Below, piece after piece: positions 21,429 to 26,000 of a DNA stretch of 29,306 nucleotides; position 1 is the first letter of the stretch, and each line of letters begins with the position of its first letter. Under the pieces are notes generated by a model, which saw only the letters and a list, made by a program, of their open reading frames with translations, searched no databases and was not told the DNA's origin. The translations under genes and the position numbers were made by a program. Origin of the DNA: a virus; IMG/VR virus record IMGVR_UViG_3300030007_000015, positions 1 through 29,306 of that record; one strand, 5' to 3'.

Positions 21429-22919
21429 ATGCCTAACGGCTTATCTGTATCACGCGTTGTACGCGTGCAGGTTTCGCTCGCGCTGAGAGCCGCGCAGGGA
21501 CGAGACTTTGGGGCGCTGCTGATCCTTGGCCCGTCTGACGTCATTGTTGCGCCGGAAGTAATGCGCCTCTATAACGACATCGAAAGCGTGGCCACAGACT
21601 TTGGCACCGCTGCCGAGGAATATAAAGCTGCATTGCTTTACTTCCAACAGTCTCCGCAACCACTCGATTTGTACATCGGTAAAATGGATCGCCAGACAAC
21701 GGCGGCCACAGCAGGGAAATTAACCGGTGCCGTACTGACCTCGACCGAACAGACTCTGACTAAATTCACCGCAGTGAGCGATGGTGCGATAAAAATCTCG
21801 GTAGACGGAACGGTTAAAACAATCACCGCCGTTGACCTCTCTGCGGTGACAGATTTAGCGGGCGTCGCTACTGCACTGCAGGCCAAACTTACCGGAACGG
21901 CGGTTGCGTGGGTGGCGGGATCTAATCAATTCACGGTGACCTCAGCGACTACCGGCGTGACGTCAAAAATCGGCATTCCGGCCGCAGCTGGCACAGGAAC
22001 CGATCTTGCGCCATTGCTGGGCATCGATGCTGCACATAATCCGACTGTCGTTGATGGGATGGCAGCATCTTCCTCGCCGCTGCCATCCGTAAACACTGCA
22101 CTGAATTACTCAGCAGACTGGTACGGGCTGGTAATTTCAGACCCTGCCATGACTGATCAGGACCATCTCGACGTCTCTTCACTTATTGGCGCGGCCAGCG
22201 ATTCACGCGTTTATGGCATTACCACGAATGCGGATGCGGTCCTCGATGCAACCAGCACAACCGACGTCGCGAGCAAAGTGAAGGCCGCGGGCTATGGGCG
22301 CTCGTTCGTCCAATACAGCCAGGTTAACTACGCCGCGGCATCGGCATTCGGCCGGGCGTTCACCGTTAATTTCCTTGGCAACAACACCACCATCACGCTG
22401 AAGTTCAAACAGGAACCCGGCATCACAGCAGAGACAATCACCGCGCAGCAGGCCGATACGCTGAAAGCCAAAAACTGCAACGTTTTCGTCCGATACGCCA
22501 ATGACACTGCCATCATTCAGGAAGGTGTTATGGCGAATGGCGACTTCTTTGACGAACGCCATGGGCTCGACTGGCTGCAGAACTACGTGCAGAACAATCT
22601 GTGGAATCTGCTTTATACCTCGACAACAAAAATCCCGCAGACCGAAGCTGGTGTAACGCGCCTGCTAACGAATGTGGAACAGTCGATGGACCAGTCTGTG
22701 ACGAATGGTCTGGTTGCGCCTGGTACTTGGACTGGCGGTTCGATTGGGCAGCTGAGTCCAGGCGACACGCTGACAAAAGGCTATTACGTTTATGCCGCGC
22801 CACTTTCAACGCAAGCACAAGCTGACCGTGAGGCCCGTAAAGCGCCAGTCATTCAGGTGGCCTGCAAACTTGCCGGCGCTGTTCATTTTGCTGACGTTTT
22901 AATCGACGTCGTTCGCTAA
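21429..22919 (+). CDS. Contractile tail sheath protein, DUF3383
   Basis: This 496-residue protein begins [20 protein letters not shown] and matches the DUF3383 family: [20 protein letters not shown] (about 27-46), [20 protein letters not shown], a long variable middle, then [20 protein letters not shown] and [20 protein letters not shown]. Sheath proteins form the outer contractile layer that drives the tube into the host. Their presence shows the tail is of myovirus type. The tube protein follows after nine bases. Confidence 0.88.
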
Positions 22920-22928
22920 GGATAAAAA

Positions 22929-23369
22929 ATGTCGACTTATTCTTTTCTTGATGTAACCGCGTCGCTAAGCGGACCAACGGGTGTTATCGATCTCGGGCAG
23001 GGCTCTGCTAACTCCGAGGAAGGTATCACCCAGACAATGGGTGGCAGCAAAAACACCATGACCGTTGGTGCTGACGGTGAAGTGATGCACAGCCTGCACG
23101 CTGACAAGTCTGGCAGCATCACGGTGACGCTCCTCAAAACCTCTCCGGTGAATAAGAAACTGTCTCTGGCCTATAACGCACAGAGCCAGTCCTCATCAAC
23201 TTGGGGCAATAACGTGATTGTGATCCGCAACTCAGCGTCTGGTGATATTTCCACCGCGCGCTCGTGCGCATTCCAAAAACAGCCTGACTTCAATAATGCC
23301 AAAGAAGGCGGAACGGTCGCCTGGGTATTCGACTGCGGCAAGATTGACCAACTGCTTGGGGAGTTTTAA
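22929..23369 (+). CDS. Tail tube protein, DUF3277-like
   Basis: This 146-residue protein starts MSTYSFLDVTASLSGPTGVI, with AAGGA upstream. The beta-rich layout (DKSGSITVTLLKTSPVNKKL, AFQKQPDFNNAKEGGTVAWV, FDCGKIDQLLGEF) is that of DUF3277 tube proteins, known in KPP10-like phages. It would polymerise as the inner tube under the sheath. Position between sheath and tail chaperone genes agrees. Length is typical. Confidence 0.85.
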   Translation: MSTYSFLDVTASLSGPTGVIDLGQGSANSEEGITQTMGGSKNTMTVGADGEVMHSLHADKSGSITVTLLKTSPVNKKLSLAYNAQSQSSSTWGNNVIVIRNSASGDISTARSCAFQKQPDFNNAKEGGTVAWVFDCGKIDQLLGEF

Positions 23370-23372
23370 TCG

Positions 23373-23798
23373 ATGGAATTTGAAATTAAGGGCATTCAGT
23401 ATCGCGTCGCCAAACTCAGTGTTTTCGAGCAACTGAAAGTGTCCCGCAAGTTGCTACCGGTTATGGCTGGCATGGTGTCAGATTTCCGTAACGTACAGAC
23501 ACAAATCAACGACAAAGACACCGAAGGCGCAATGAGTACCATTCTGCCAAAAATCGCCAATGCGGTATCGGCGATGAGTGATGATGATGTGAACGCGATA
23601 CTGTTCCCATGCCTCTCAGTCGCGTCTCGTTTTCACATGAAGGGGTGGGTGCCAGTCTGTCAGCAGGGGGCAATGGCTTTTGATGATATTGACCTTCTGA
23701 CGATGTTGCAGCTGGTGGCCCGGGTGGTGGCTGATTCATTGGGAAATTTTTTGCAAGGACTCCCTACCAGCGAGACGGAAGCGCAGCCTGCGGAATAA
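23373..23798 (+). CDS. Tail assembly chaperone, unshifted form
   Basis: This 141-residue protein (MEFEIKGIQYRVAKLSVFEQ) is located between the tube and tape measure genes, the fixed place of tail chaperones. It is helical, with a central SDDDVNAILFPCLSVASRFH stretch. Codons 124-126 form the slippery site A_AAT_TTT (23744-23750). Most ribosomes would continue in frame to EAQPAE. A fraction shift by -1 into 78 further codons. Chaperones of this kind coat the tape measure protein while the tail assembles. Confidence 0.85.
   Translation: MEFEIKGIQYRVAKLSVFEQLKVSRKLLPVMAGMVSDFRNVQTQINDKDTEGAMSTILPKIANAVSAMSDDDVNAILFPCLSVASRFHMKGWVPVCQQGAMAFDDIDLLTMLQLVARVVADSLGNFLQGLPTSETEAQPAE
23744..23750 (+). 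other. Programmed -1 ribosomal frameshift site A_AAT_TTT
   Basis: The heptamer AAATTTT is in the correct phase for tandem slippage (GGA AAT TTT TTG), obeys X_XXY_YYZ, and lies 48 bases before the zero-frame stop. The -1 frame is open from here to 23986. This is the layout of lambda G/GT. Confidence 0.85.
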
Positions 23799-23986
23799 CC
23801 TTCAACAACCTGCCGGGCGGAGAAGATTCTATTCTTCGCCCGGTGCTGGCGTTCGGTATTGATCAGAAAGACCTCGACAGCGGCGCGGTAGACCTCTGCC
23901 GCATTGCCTTGCTCAATGACTACCTCGACATGCGCGAGGATAACGAATCCCGTGTAGATAAATGGAGAGCGGCCAATGAGCGGTAA
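23750..23986 (+). CDS. Tail assembly chaperone, -1 frame extension
   Basis: The extension encodes 78 residues in the -1 frame (from FARTPYQRDGSAACGITFNN onward) and ends at the TAA at 23984-23986, ten bases into the tape measure gene. It has no good start codon of its own, so it is expected only as a 204-residue fusion made at the slippery site. Segments SILRPVLAFGIDQKDLDSGA and ALLNDYLDMREDNESRVDKW are well-formed helical protein sequence, which supports real coding. By analogy with lambda gpGT it binds the tape measure protein. Confidence 0.82.
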   Translation, partial: FARTPYQRDGSAACGITFNNLPGGEDSILRPVLAFGIDQKDLDSGAVDLCRIALLNDYLDMREDNESRVDKWRAANER

Positions 23987-26000
23987 TGCGGATACTATTA
24001 AGGACTTTTTGATCTCGCTTGGGTTCGACATTGATGAGTCCGGGGCTGATAAGTTTGATGCTGTCCTGAAAGGCGTCACTGCTAACGTGCTGAAGGTTGG
24101 CGCGGTTGTGGAAGGCACTGCGCTGGCCGTCGTAGGCTTTACAACTCAGATCGCCAATGGTCTGGATAAAGTCTACTGGGCATCACAGCGCACCGGTGCC
24201 AGCGTGCAGGGCATTAAAGCGCTGGGCTATGCCGCTTCGCAAACGGGTGCCAGTGCTGAATCTGCGATGTCTTCCCTCGAAGGACTGTCGAGCTTCATGC
24301 GCAACAGTCCGGGCGCGGAGGGTTTCCTGAACCGCCTGGGCGTTCAGACTCGTGACGTCAGCGGCAAAATGCGCGACACGGCATCCATTTTCACGGGTGT
24401 CGGCCAGAAGCTCAACAACATGCCGTACTACCGTGCCAGACAGTATGCGCAGATGCTCGGCATTGATGAAAATACGCTGATGGCAATGCGGCGCGGGCTC
24501 GGTCAATTCAGTTCCGAGTATGCGCTGACCGCTAAAAAGATTGGTTTCAATGCCGAAGTGGCAGCGAAGCAATCCAATATCTTCATGACCTCCATGCGCG
24601 GCCTCACGGCCACCCTCGGGCAGGCACGCGACAAGATTGGCTCTAACCTGGCTGGTGGTCTGGCCGGTAGCATTGATTCCCTAAATAAGCAGCTACTCGA
24701 CAACTGGCCCAAAATTGAAGCCGTGTTGATGAAGGTGATCAAAGGCATTCTTTTTGCGGGCGATGCCGTTACTCGCGTTTTGTGGCGAACAGGGCAGGCC
24801 GTTGGCGACGTCATCGGCTGGTTTAAAAAGCTGGACCCGGTGACGCAGCAACTCATCATGCTGTTTGGTGGCCTGCTGGTCGCCTGGCGTTTGCTGAATA
24901 CCGCGTTTCTTTCCTCTCCGATCGGCATTGTCACTTCCCTTGTATTGGCACTCGGCCTGCTCTGGGATGACTATCAGACGTGGAAAGAAGGCGGGAAAAG
25001 CCTGATTGACTGGGGGAAATGGAAGCCAGAGATCGACGCAGCCCTTAAGGCGATGAACGAGCTTAAAGCGTCCATTAAAAACATCGGCCTTGAGGTCGCA
25101 AAACTCCTCAACATCAATCTGAGCAACTGGACGCTAAAAGGCGACATCGAGAACCTGACGAAGCAATTCGGTGAGTTCGGCAAAATGATGTCGATGATTG
25201 GCGATCTTCTTAATGCCTTGAAGGACGGCAACTGGAAGCAGGCATACAGCATCGGCAAGCAATTGATGGCGCAGGGACAGGATCAGCCTGATGCGCTTCC
25301 TGAAGTATCAGCTGCTGCAGTCCGACACCGTGAAGCGGCCTTGGGTTTTTATAACGATTTAAACGGCAAGCTTAATTCGTGGCTCCCTGAATGGGCGGGT
25401 GGTTCGCCTGCAGAACCAGAGCAGCACGGTCAATCGGTAAAACGGCCACAGGCGACTTCAAAGGGTAAGGCGCTGCTCGATTGGATGGCTCCAACCTTTA
25501 ATAAGCTTGAATCGCTCTACCGATTACCAGACGGTCTGCTGAAAAGCGTGGCTATCACTGAGTCTGGAGGTAACCAGCTTGCGATGTCAGGTGCTGGCGC
25601 TAAGGGCTTGTTCCAGTTTATGGACGGTACCGCGAAGGATATGGGCCTGCGTGGCAATGATGTCTTTGATCCGGAGAAGTCCGCACAGGCGGCTGCGAAG
25701 TATCTCAGCCAGCTGCTTAAGCAGAACGGCGGTGACCTCAATAAAACGTTGGCTTCGTATAACTGGGGCATTGGTAACGTGCAGCGTTATGGCATGGGCC
25801 TGATGCCGCAGGAGACGCGCAATTACATTCCGAAGGTAATGAGCAACATGCCCGCGGCTGGTGGGACGCCAATTCAGCAGGAGACGAATATTCACATTCA
25901 TGGTGTCTCTGACCCTCGCGAAGCTGCAAGACTCACCGTTGATCGCCAGAAAAGCGTGAACTCTCAATTAACGCAACAACTACCGATGGTGCCGGGCTAA
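23976..26000 (+). CDS. Tape measure protein with lytic transglycosylase domain
   Basis: This 674-residue protein starts at ATG 23976, overlapping the chaperone extension. The N-terminal half is helical (GADKFDAVLKGVTANVLKVG). A hydrophobic region lies about residues 275-330 (LIMLFGGLLVAWRLLNTAFL, GIVTSLVLALGLLW). An SLT domain lies about 515-620 with catalytic Glu529 in AITESGGNQ and the following GAKGLFQFM and ASYNWGIGNV motifs. It sets tail length and, when injected, likely cuts peptidoglycan and helps DNA cross the inner membrane. Confidence 0.9.
   Translation: MSGNADTIKDFLISLGFDIDESGADKFDAVLKGVTANVLKVGAVVEGTALAVVGFTTQIANGLDKVYWASQRTGASVQGIKALGYAASQTGASAESAMSSLEGLSSFMRNSPGAEGFLNRLGVQTRDVSGKMRDTASIFTGVGQKLNNMPYYRARQYAQMLGIDENTLMAMRRGLGQFSSEYALTAKKIGFNAEVAAKQSNIFMTSMRGLTATLGQARDKIGSNLAGGLAGSIDSLNKQLLDNWPKIEAVLMKVIKGILFAGDAVTRVLWRTGQAVGDVIGWFKKLDPVTQQLIMLFGGLLVAWRLLNTAFLSSPIGIVTSLVLALGLLWDDYQTWKEGGKSLIDWGKWKPEIDAALKAMNELKASIKNIGLEVAKLLNINLSNWTLKGDIENLTKQFGEFGKMMSMIGDLLNALKDGNWKQAYSIGKQLMAQGQDQPDALPEVSAAAVRHREAALGFYNDLNGKLNSWLPEWAGGSPAEPEQHGQSVKRPQATSKGKALLDWMAPTFNKLESLYRLPDGLLKSVAITESGGNQLAMSGAGAKGLFQFMDGTAKDMGLRGNDVFDPEKSAQAAAKYLSQLLKQNGGDLNKTLASYNWGIGNVQRYGMGLMPQETRNYIPKVMSNMPAAGGTPIQQETNIHIHGVSDPREAARLTVDRQKSVNSQLTQQLPMVPG

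Follow-up and report, generated by a model that had tools for sequence, protein, structure and literature searches.

We propose that the tail assembly chaperone of the phage studied here is made in two forms, the longer of which, TAC-NC, would arise by a -1 slip of the ribosome at GGGAAATTTTTTG and would carry the domain DUF6889 at its end. On the sequence evidence presented below we hold this to be very probable. The DNA analysed (the window) is an IMG/VR virus record of 29,306 bases that is partial and without further context. A programmed -1 frameshift in the tail chaperone had been claimed in an earlier note on this DNA, and the claim gains support from the overlap of the two frames in related loci, from the slippery motifs at their junction and from a -1 homology that starts at the slip. 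Frameshifts of this kind have long been known (lambda, P2, Mu, Pakpunavirus) and the homologous site is annotated in the phages Mulock and Magia, so that the window represents an ordinary case.

Profile searches of the window yielded a standard tailed-phage module with terminase, portal, capsid, tail terminator, sheath, tube, chaperone, tape measure and baseplate genes (Table 1). The succession of a DUF3383 sheath, a KPP10_Orf10 tube, TAC_15, DUF6889 in the -1 frame and an SLT tape measure is the myovirus order, in agreement with the context assumed before. The tube family (PF11681) is named for phage KPP10, a member of the Vandenendeviridae/Pakpunavirus group. Two overlapping frames sit between the tube gene and the tape measure gene, as in the lambda G/GT-type class, whose fusion protein is produced in a low and fixed proportion relative to the short form. 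The chaperone ORF matched Phage_TAC_15 (PF21822) with 110.6 bits (curated cut-off 22), and the translation of the -1 frame matched DUF6889 (PF21829) with 45.4 bits (curated cut-off 23.9). Apart from this module, a tRNA-Gly (anticodon CCC) is predicted on the minus strand of the early region (2335-2405).

Table 1 Positions of the chaperone locus features in the window and of two related tandem loci
Feature	Position	Strand	Evidence or remark
Tail sheath protein (DUF3383, phrog_205)	21429..22919	+	Pfam E 1.5e-140; PHROG tail sheath
Tail tube-type structural protein (KPP10_Orf10)	22929..23369	+	Pfam E 1.3e-59
Zero-frame tail assembly chaperone, short form (TAC-N, lambda gpG equivalent), 141 aa	23373..23798	+	Pfam Phage_TAC_15 E 9.8e-32; phrog_1688 tail assembly chaperone E 2.9e-55
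Possible weak Shine-Dalgarno-like stimulator GGGTGGT (tentative candidate)	23722..23728	+	15 nt upstream of A_AAT_TTT
In-phase heptamer G_GGA_AAT, overlapping	23741..23747	+	sole canonical heptamer left in Bordetella/Achromobacter-type relatives
Slippery heptamer A_AAT_TTT, most likely main slip site	23744..23750	+	in phase; AAATTTT at homologous position in 126/277 distinct loci
In-phase heptamer T_TTT_TTG (P2 slip motif), overlapping	23747..23753	+
-1 extension after slip, 78 codons + stop, with DUF6889 (TAC-NC C-domain, lambda gpT-like role by analogy)	23750..23986	+	DUF6889 E 6.5e-12; phrog_4364 E 2.1e-16
Predicted frameshift fusion TAC-NC, 204 aa (126 aa zero frame + 78 aa -1 frame, T23750 read twice)	23373..23986	+	calculated; homologous joined CDS annotated in Mulock and Magia
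Tape measure protein with SLT domain	23976..26000	+	overlapped by 11 nt by the end of the -1 extension
Tandem TAC_15 loci	L202:1063-2261; L387:1017-2076

The heptamer A_AAT_TTT stands in phase with the chaperone gene, 45 nt ahead of the TAA stop codon and 48 nt ahead of its last base. It thus lies close to the zero-frame stop, as in the lambda G/GT-type class; in the same test the heptamers of lambda and P2, which served as yardsticks, start 24 and 27 nt ahead of the last base of the stop. The earlier note had missed that three in-phase heptamers overlap at this place, spelled by GGGAAATTTTTTG, of which A_AAT_TTT is the middle one. A_AAT_TTT belongs to the class H_HH.U_UU.Y. Bacterial ribosomes shift into the -1 frame most readily where the tRNA in the A site can re-pair cognately, and in E. 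coli this class ranks with the most efficient ones (PMC4066793). From stop to stop the -1 ORF comprises positions 23735-23986; past the slip it remains open for 78 codons (23750-23983, stop at 23984-23986), its last 11 nt lying within the tape measure ORF. As had also been noticed, the frame is without a usable start of its own. The first ATG, GTG or TTG that it contains, the GTG at 23843, already belongs to the conserved domain; a start there would leave 47 codons, with loss of the conserved LPxGE...RP motif.

Homologous loci were collected from IMG/VR and from prokaryote genomes; 380 were analysed, of which 278 are distinct around the junction, counts that include related sequences and do not stand for independent events. 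The DUF6889 frame is in the -1 frame relative to the chaperone and overlaps the chaperone end in 277 of the 278 distinct loci, and a slippery motif is present at the homologous position in 277 of 277 (222 with H_HH.U_UU.Y, 20 with other heptamers and 35 with a U_UUU tetramer only). Frame relation and slippery site are both kept in the relatives, as in the lambda G/GT-type class. A tblastn search of phage records with the -1 ORF gave 37 records, in most of which the homology spans the stretch from the slip site to the frame end. DUF6889 could also be an independent small gene with an internal or re-initiation start of its own, and a separate CDS is indeed annotated in several records (yong1, GZ7, ST11-OXA48phi15.1, BgManors32, ZHS). 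However, homology and conservation of the -1 frame begin at the slip site itself, upstream of the annotated DUF6889 starts. The first possible start in the window lies past most of the LPxGE...RP motif, and in 237 of 277 loci the -1 frame contains no ATG, GTG or TTG from the slip to the motif. Moreover, the -1 relation to the chaperone, for which an independent gene would have no use, is kept in all distinct loci but one. We therefore regard a separate gene as very improbable and favour synthesis of the -1 product as an extension of the chaperone.

Elsewhere in the same chaperone ORFs, H_HH.U_UU.Y was found at 0 of 33,012 codon positions, versus 222 of 277 loci at the slip site, and any in-phase heptamer at only 54 positions (0.16%); by these counts the slip site far exceeds chance. 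The codons of the site are synonymously locked, with TTT in 260 cases and TTC in none for Phe, CCT in 79 of 79 for Pro and AAT in 148 of 148 for Asn. In the rest of the chaperone ORF usage is mixed, and TTC, CCG and AAC predominate. Among 74 enterobacterial-type loci the codons GGA, AAT, TTT and TTG are fixed to 0.99-1.00. Slippage of RNA polymerase on the T-run, rather than of the ribosome, might be considered as the source of the -1 product, given the run of six T in the window and of seven in 48 loci. This is still less probable than a separate gene, since the run has at most five T, mostly four, in 127 of 277 loci, and in the Bordetella/Achromobacter-type clade the site reads GGGAAATAC or GGGAAATAT, with a strong hairpin downstream; in addition, the exact X_XXZ_ZZN phase is kept, as demanded by ribosomal but not by polymerase slippage. 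A partial record without further context might also leave room for a sequencing error, or for an indel that disables a gene of a decaying prophage. The prospect is negligible, since the same arrangement and phase recur in 277 distinct loci, among them the complete genomes of isolated phages (for example, myophage Mulock).

The earlier note had suggested an alignment of relatives in order to see whether AAATTTT and the frame are conserved, and had named as contrary evidence any relatives that lost the heptamer but kept both frames. The frame relation is conserved, whereas the exact AAATTTT is present in only 126 of 277 loci, and 35 loci correspond literally to the contrary case. These 35 retain T_TTT, which can itself slip in E. 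coli (PMC4066793), so that the site has stayed slippery although its exact heptamer has drifted. Between clades the motif varies from A_AAT_TTT, C_CCT_TTT and T_TTT_TTY to G_GGA_AAT with a strong hairpin, or U_UUU alone. One locus that seemed to be a +1 case (L232) was dismissed as such, with the indel located upstream and a -1 relation at the slip. The diverged Edwardsiella phage vB_EpM_ZHS (L018, 1049-1728) is annotated as two genes and has only GATTTTATG near the homologous place; its -1 frame nevertheless continues without a stop over the end of the chaperone, and the next protein is annotated as portal though it is in the tape measure position.

A stable RNA structure was sought in the 50 nt past the window's slip site and was not found (z +1.3). 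The rate of slippage is therefore likely set mainly by the motif, perhaps together with the upstream GGGTGGT; of its codons, CGG is fixed to 90% and GTG to 97% among 74 enterobacterial-type relatives. A hairpin of 13 bp is present at 23812-23844, just past the zero-frame stop and within the DUF6889 frame. Close relatives have similar hairpins, but more distant enterobacterial-type relatives fold differently; for this reason, and because it begins 61 nt past the heptamer and so exceeds the usual spacing, we do not claim it as a stimulator. According to Sharma et al., U_UUY tetramers require a strong stimulator, and none was found in the 35 tetramer-only relatives as a group. Compensation of these sites by a stronger downstream structure was unconvincing (mean z -0.79 versus -0.31 in control stretches). 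Downstream structure is strong (mean z -3.2) in the 20 loci with a heptamer other than H_HH.U_UU.Y, mostly GGGAAAT, a group dominated by Bordetella/Achromobacter-type relatives (L225-L243), one example of which has an unusually stable two-part hairpin (-28.7 kcal/mol, z -3.8).

Two alphaproteobacterial loci are without the frameshift. In L202, a Methylobacterium prophage that is the same as L303, and in L387, from a second genome of the same bacterial family, an unfused TAC_15 gene precedes a second, TAC_15-like gene that is fused in frame to DUF6889. The next ORF of L387 is unlike a long tape measure gene. In the predicted structure of the L202 fusion a folded N domain is connected to a helical C domain by a low-confidence linker (residues 131-154), which corresponds to the segment that is dual-coded in frameshifted relatives. 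The C domain of the window, modelled alone, consists of helices (mean pLDDT 86). A fold search of the PDB with the C-domain and with the natural fusion revealed nothing significant. Since the two-gene loci encode it in frame, the chaperone::DUF6889 fusion is presumably the functional product, which supports the model of two forms; the loci are independent support that both forms are needed.

From these observations we infer the following course of events. The majority of ribosomes would read the zero frame to its stop (23373-23798) and release TAC-N. A minority would slip back by one base at GGGAAATTTTTTG, with the P-site tRNA exchanging AAU for AAA and the A-site tRNA-Phe one UUU for another, and would then continue in the -1 frame through DUF6889 to give TAC-NC. 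Lambda uses its short form to coat the tape measure protein and the C-domain of its long form to recruit the tube protein; neither form is present in the virion (PMC5009743). By analogy to lambda gpG/gpGT, many short forms may coat the tape measure protein of the present phage, and the C-domain of a few long forms may recruit the tube protein and thereby start tail polymerisation. The assignment of these roles is suggested by gene order and chaperone family. It is a division of roles by analogy, because TAC_15 and DUF6889 have no detectable homology to lambda gpG/gpT (hhalign probability ≤2%) or to P2 gpE.

For the TAC_15 family as a whole we consider it rather probable that the frameshift is nearly universal but replaceable, that DUF6889 is the C-domain of the long chaperone, that the slip motif drifts, and that at least two loci replaced the frameshift by chaperone duplication and in-frame fusion to DUF6889. 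New here are the connection of DUF6889 with a frameshift, the survey of slip motifs across the loci, and the two-gene loci that replace the frameshift. A role is thereby proposed for DUF6889, which is filed as a family of unknown function; our literature search for mentions of DUF6889 found none, and in many phage records it is either missing or entered as a hypothetical gene of its own. The several hundred loci offer a ready natural series on the change of a slippery site with its outcome kept.

The closest known counterparts are Klebsiella phage Mulock (CPT_Mulock_014/015, MN098327) and Burkholderia phage Magia (CPT_Magia_015/016, MT701587), which share gene order, a homologous chaperone and the -1 extension with the window. 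Mulock has the same GGGAAATTTTTTG, whereas the slip site of Magia differs (C_CCT_TTT). In both, the label 'tape measure chaperone frameshift product' is already attached to the site; the Mulock paper is silent on the frameshift (PMC6856289). Lambda G/GT resembles the window in gene position, in a -1 slip shortly before the zero-frame stop and in an extension that ends at the tape measure gene, but slips at G_GGA_AAG, has a non-contractile tail and lacks detectable sequence homology. The earlier note had presented lambda as the model and the window as its myovirus version. The myovirus context is correct, but it constitutes no novelty, as contractile P2 has an annotated -1 site. P2 E/E+E' likewise slips near the end of the gene preceding the tape measure, at T_TTT_TTG, a motif also present in the window, and its proteins have no detectable sequence homology to those of the window. 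By its title, the work of Vladimirov et al. 2022 reportedly describes a T4-like phage tail chaperone system that is made without frameshifting. Such a system, as far as the title tells, would resemble the two-gene loci L202 and L387, whereas the window itself is predicted to use a frameshift. Passages in the literature list the tail chaperone frameshifts of P2 and Mu (PMC5009743; PMC2628397), and those of Mu, FluMu and D3 are cited in a passage of the latter (PMC2628397). The TAC-N/TAC-NC pair of the Vandenendeviridae/Pakpunavirus group (phage Adele, PMC12846349), published in December 2025, is likewise a myovirus chaperone with a conserved -1 frameshift at a T-rich motif; its slip motif, GTTTTT, is unlike that of the window.
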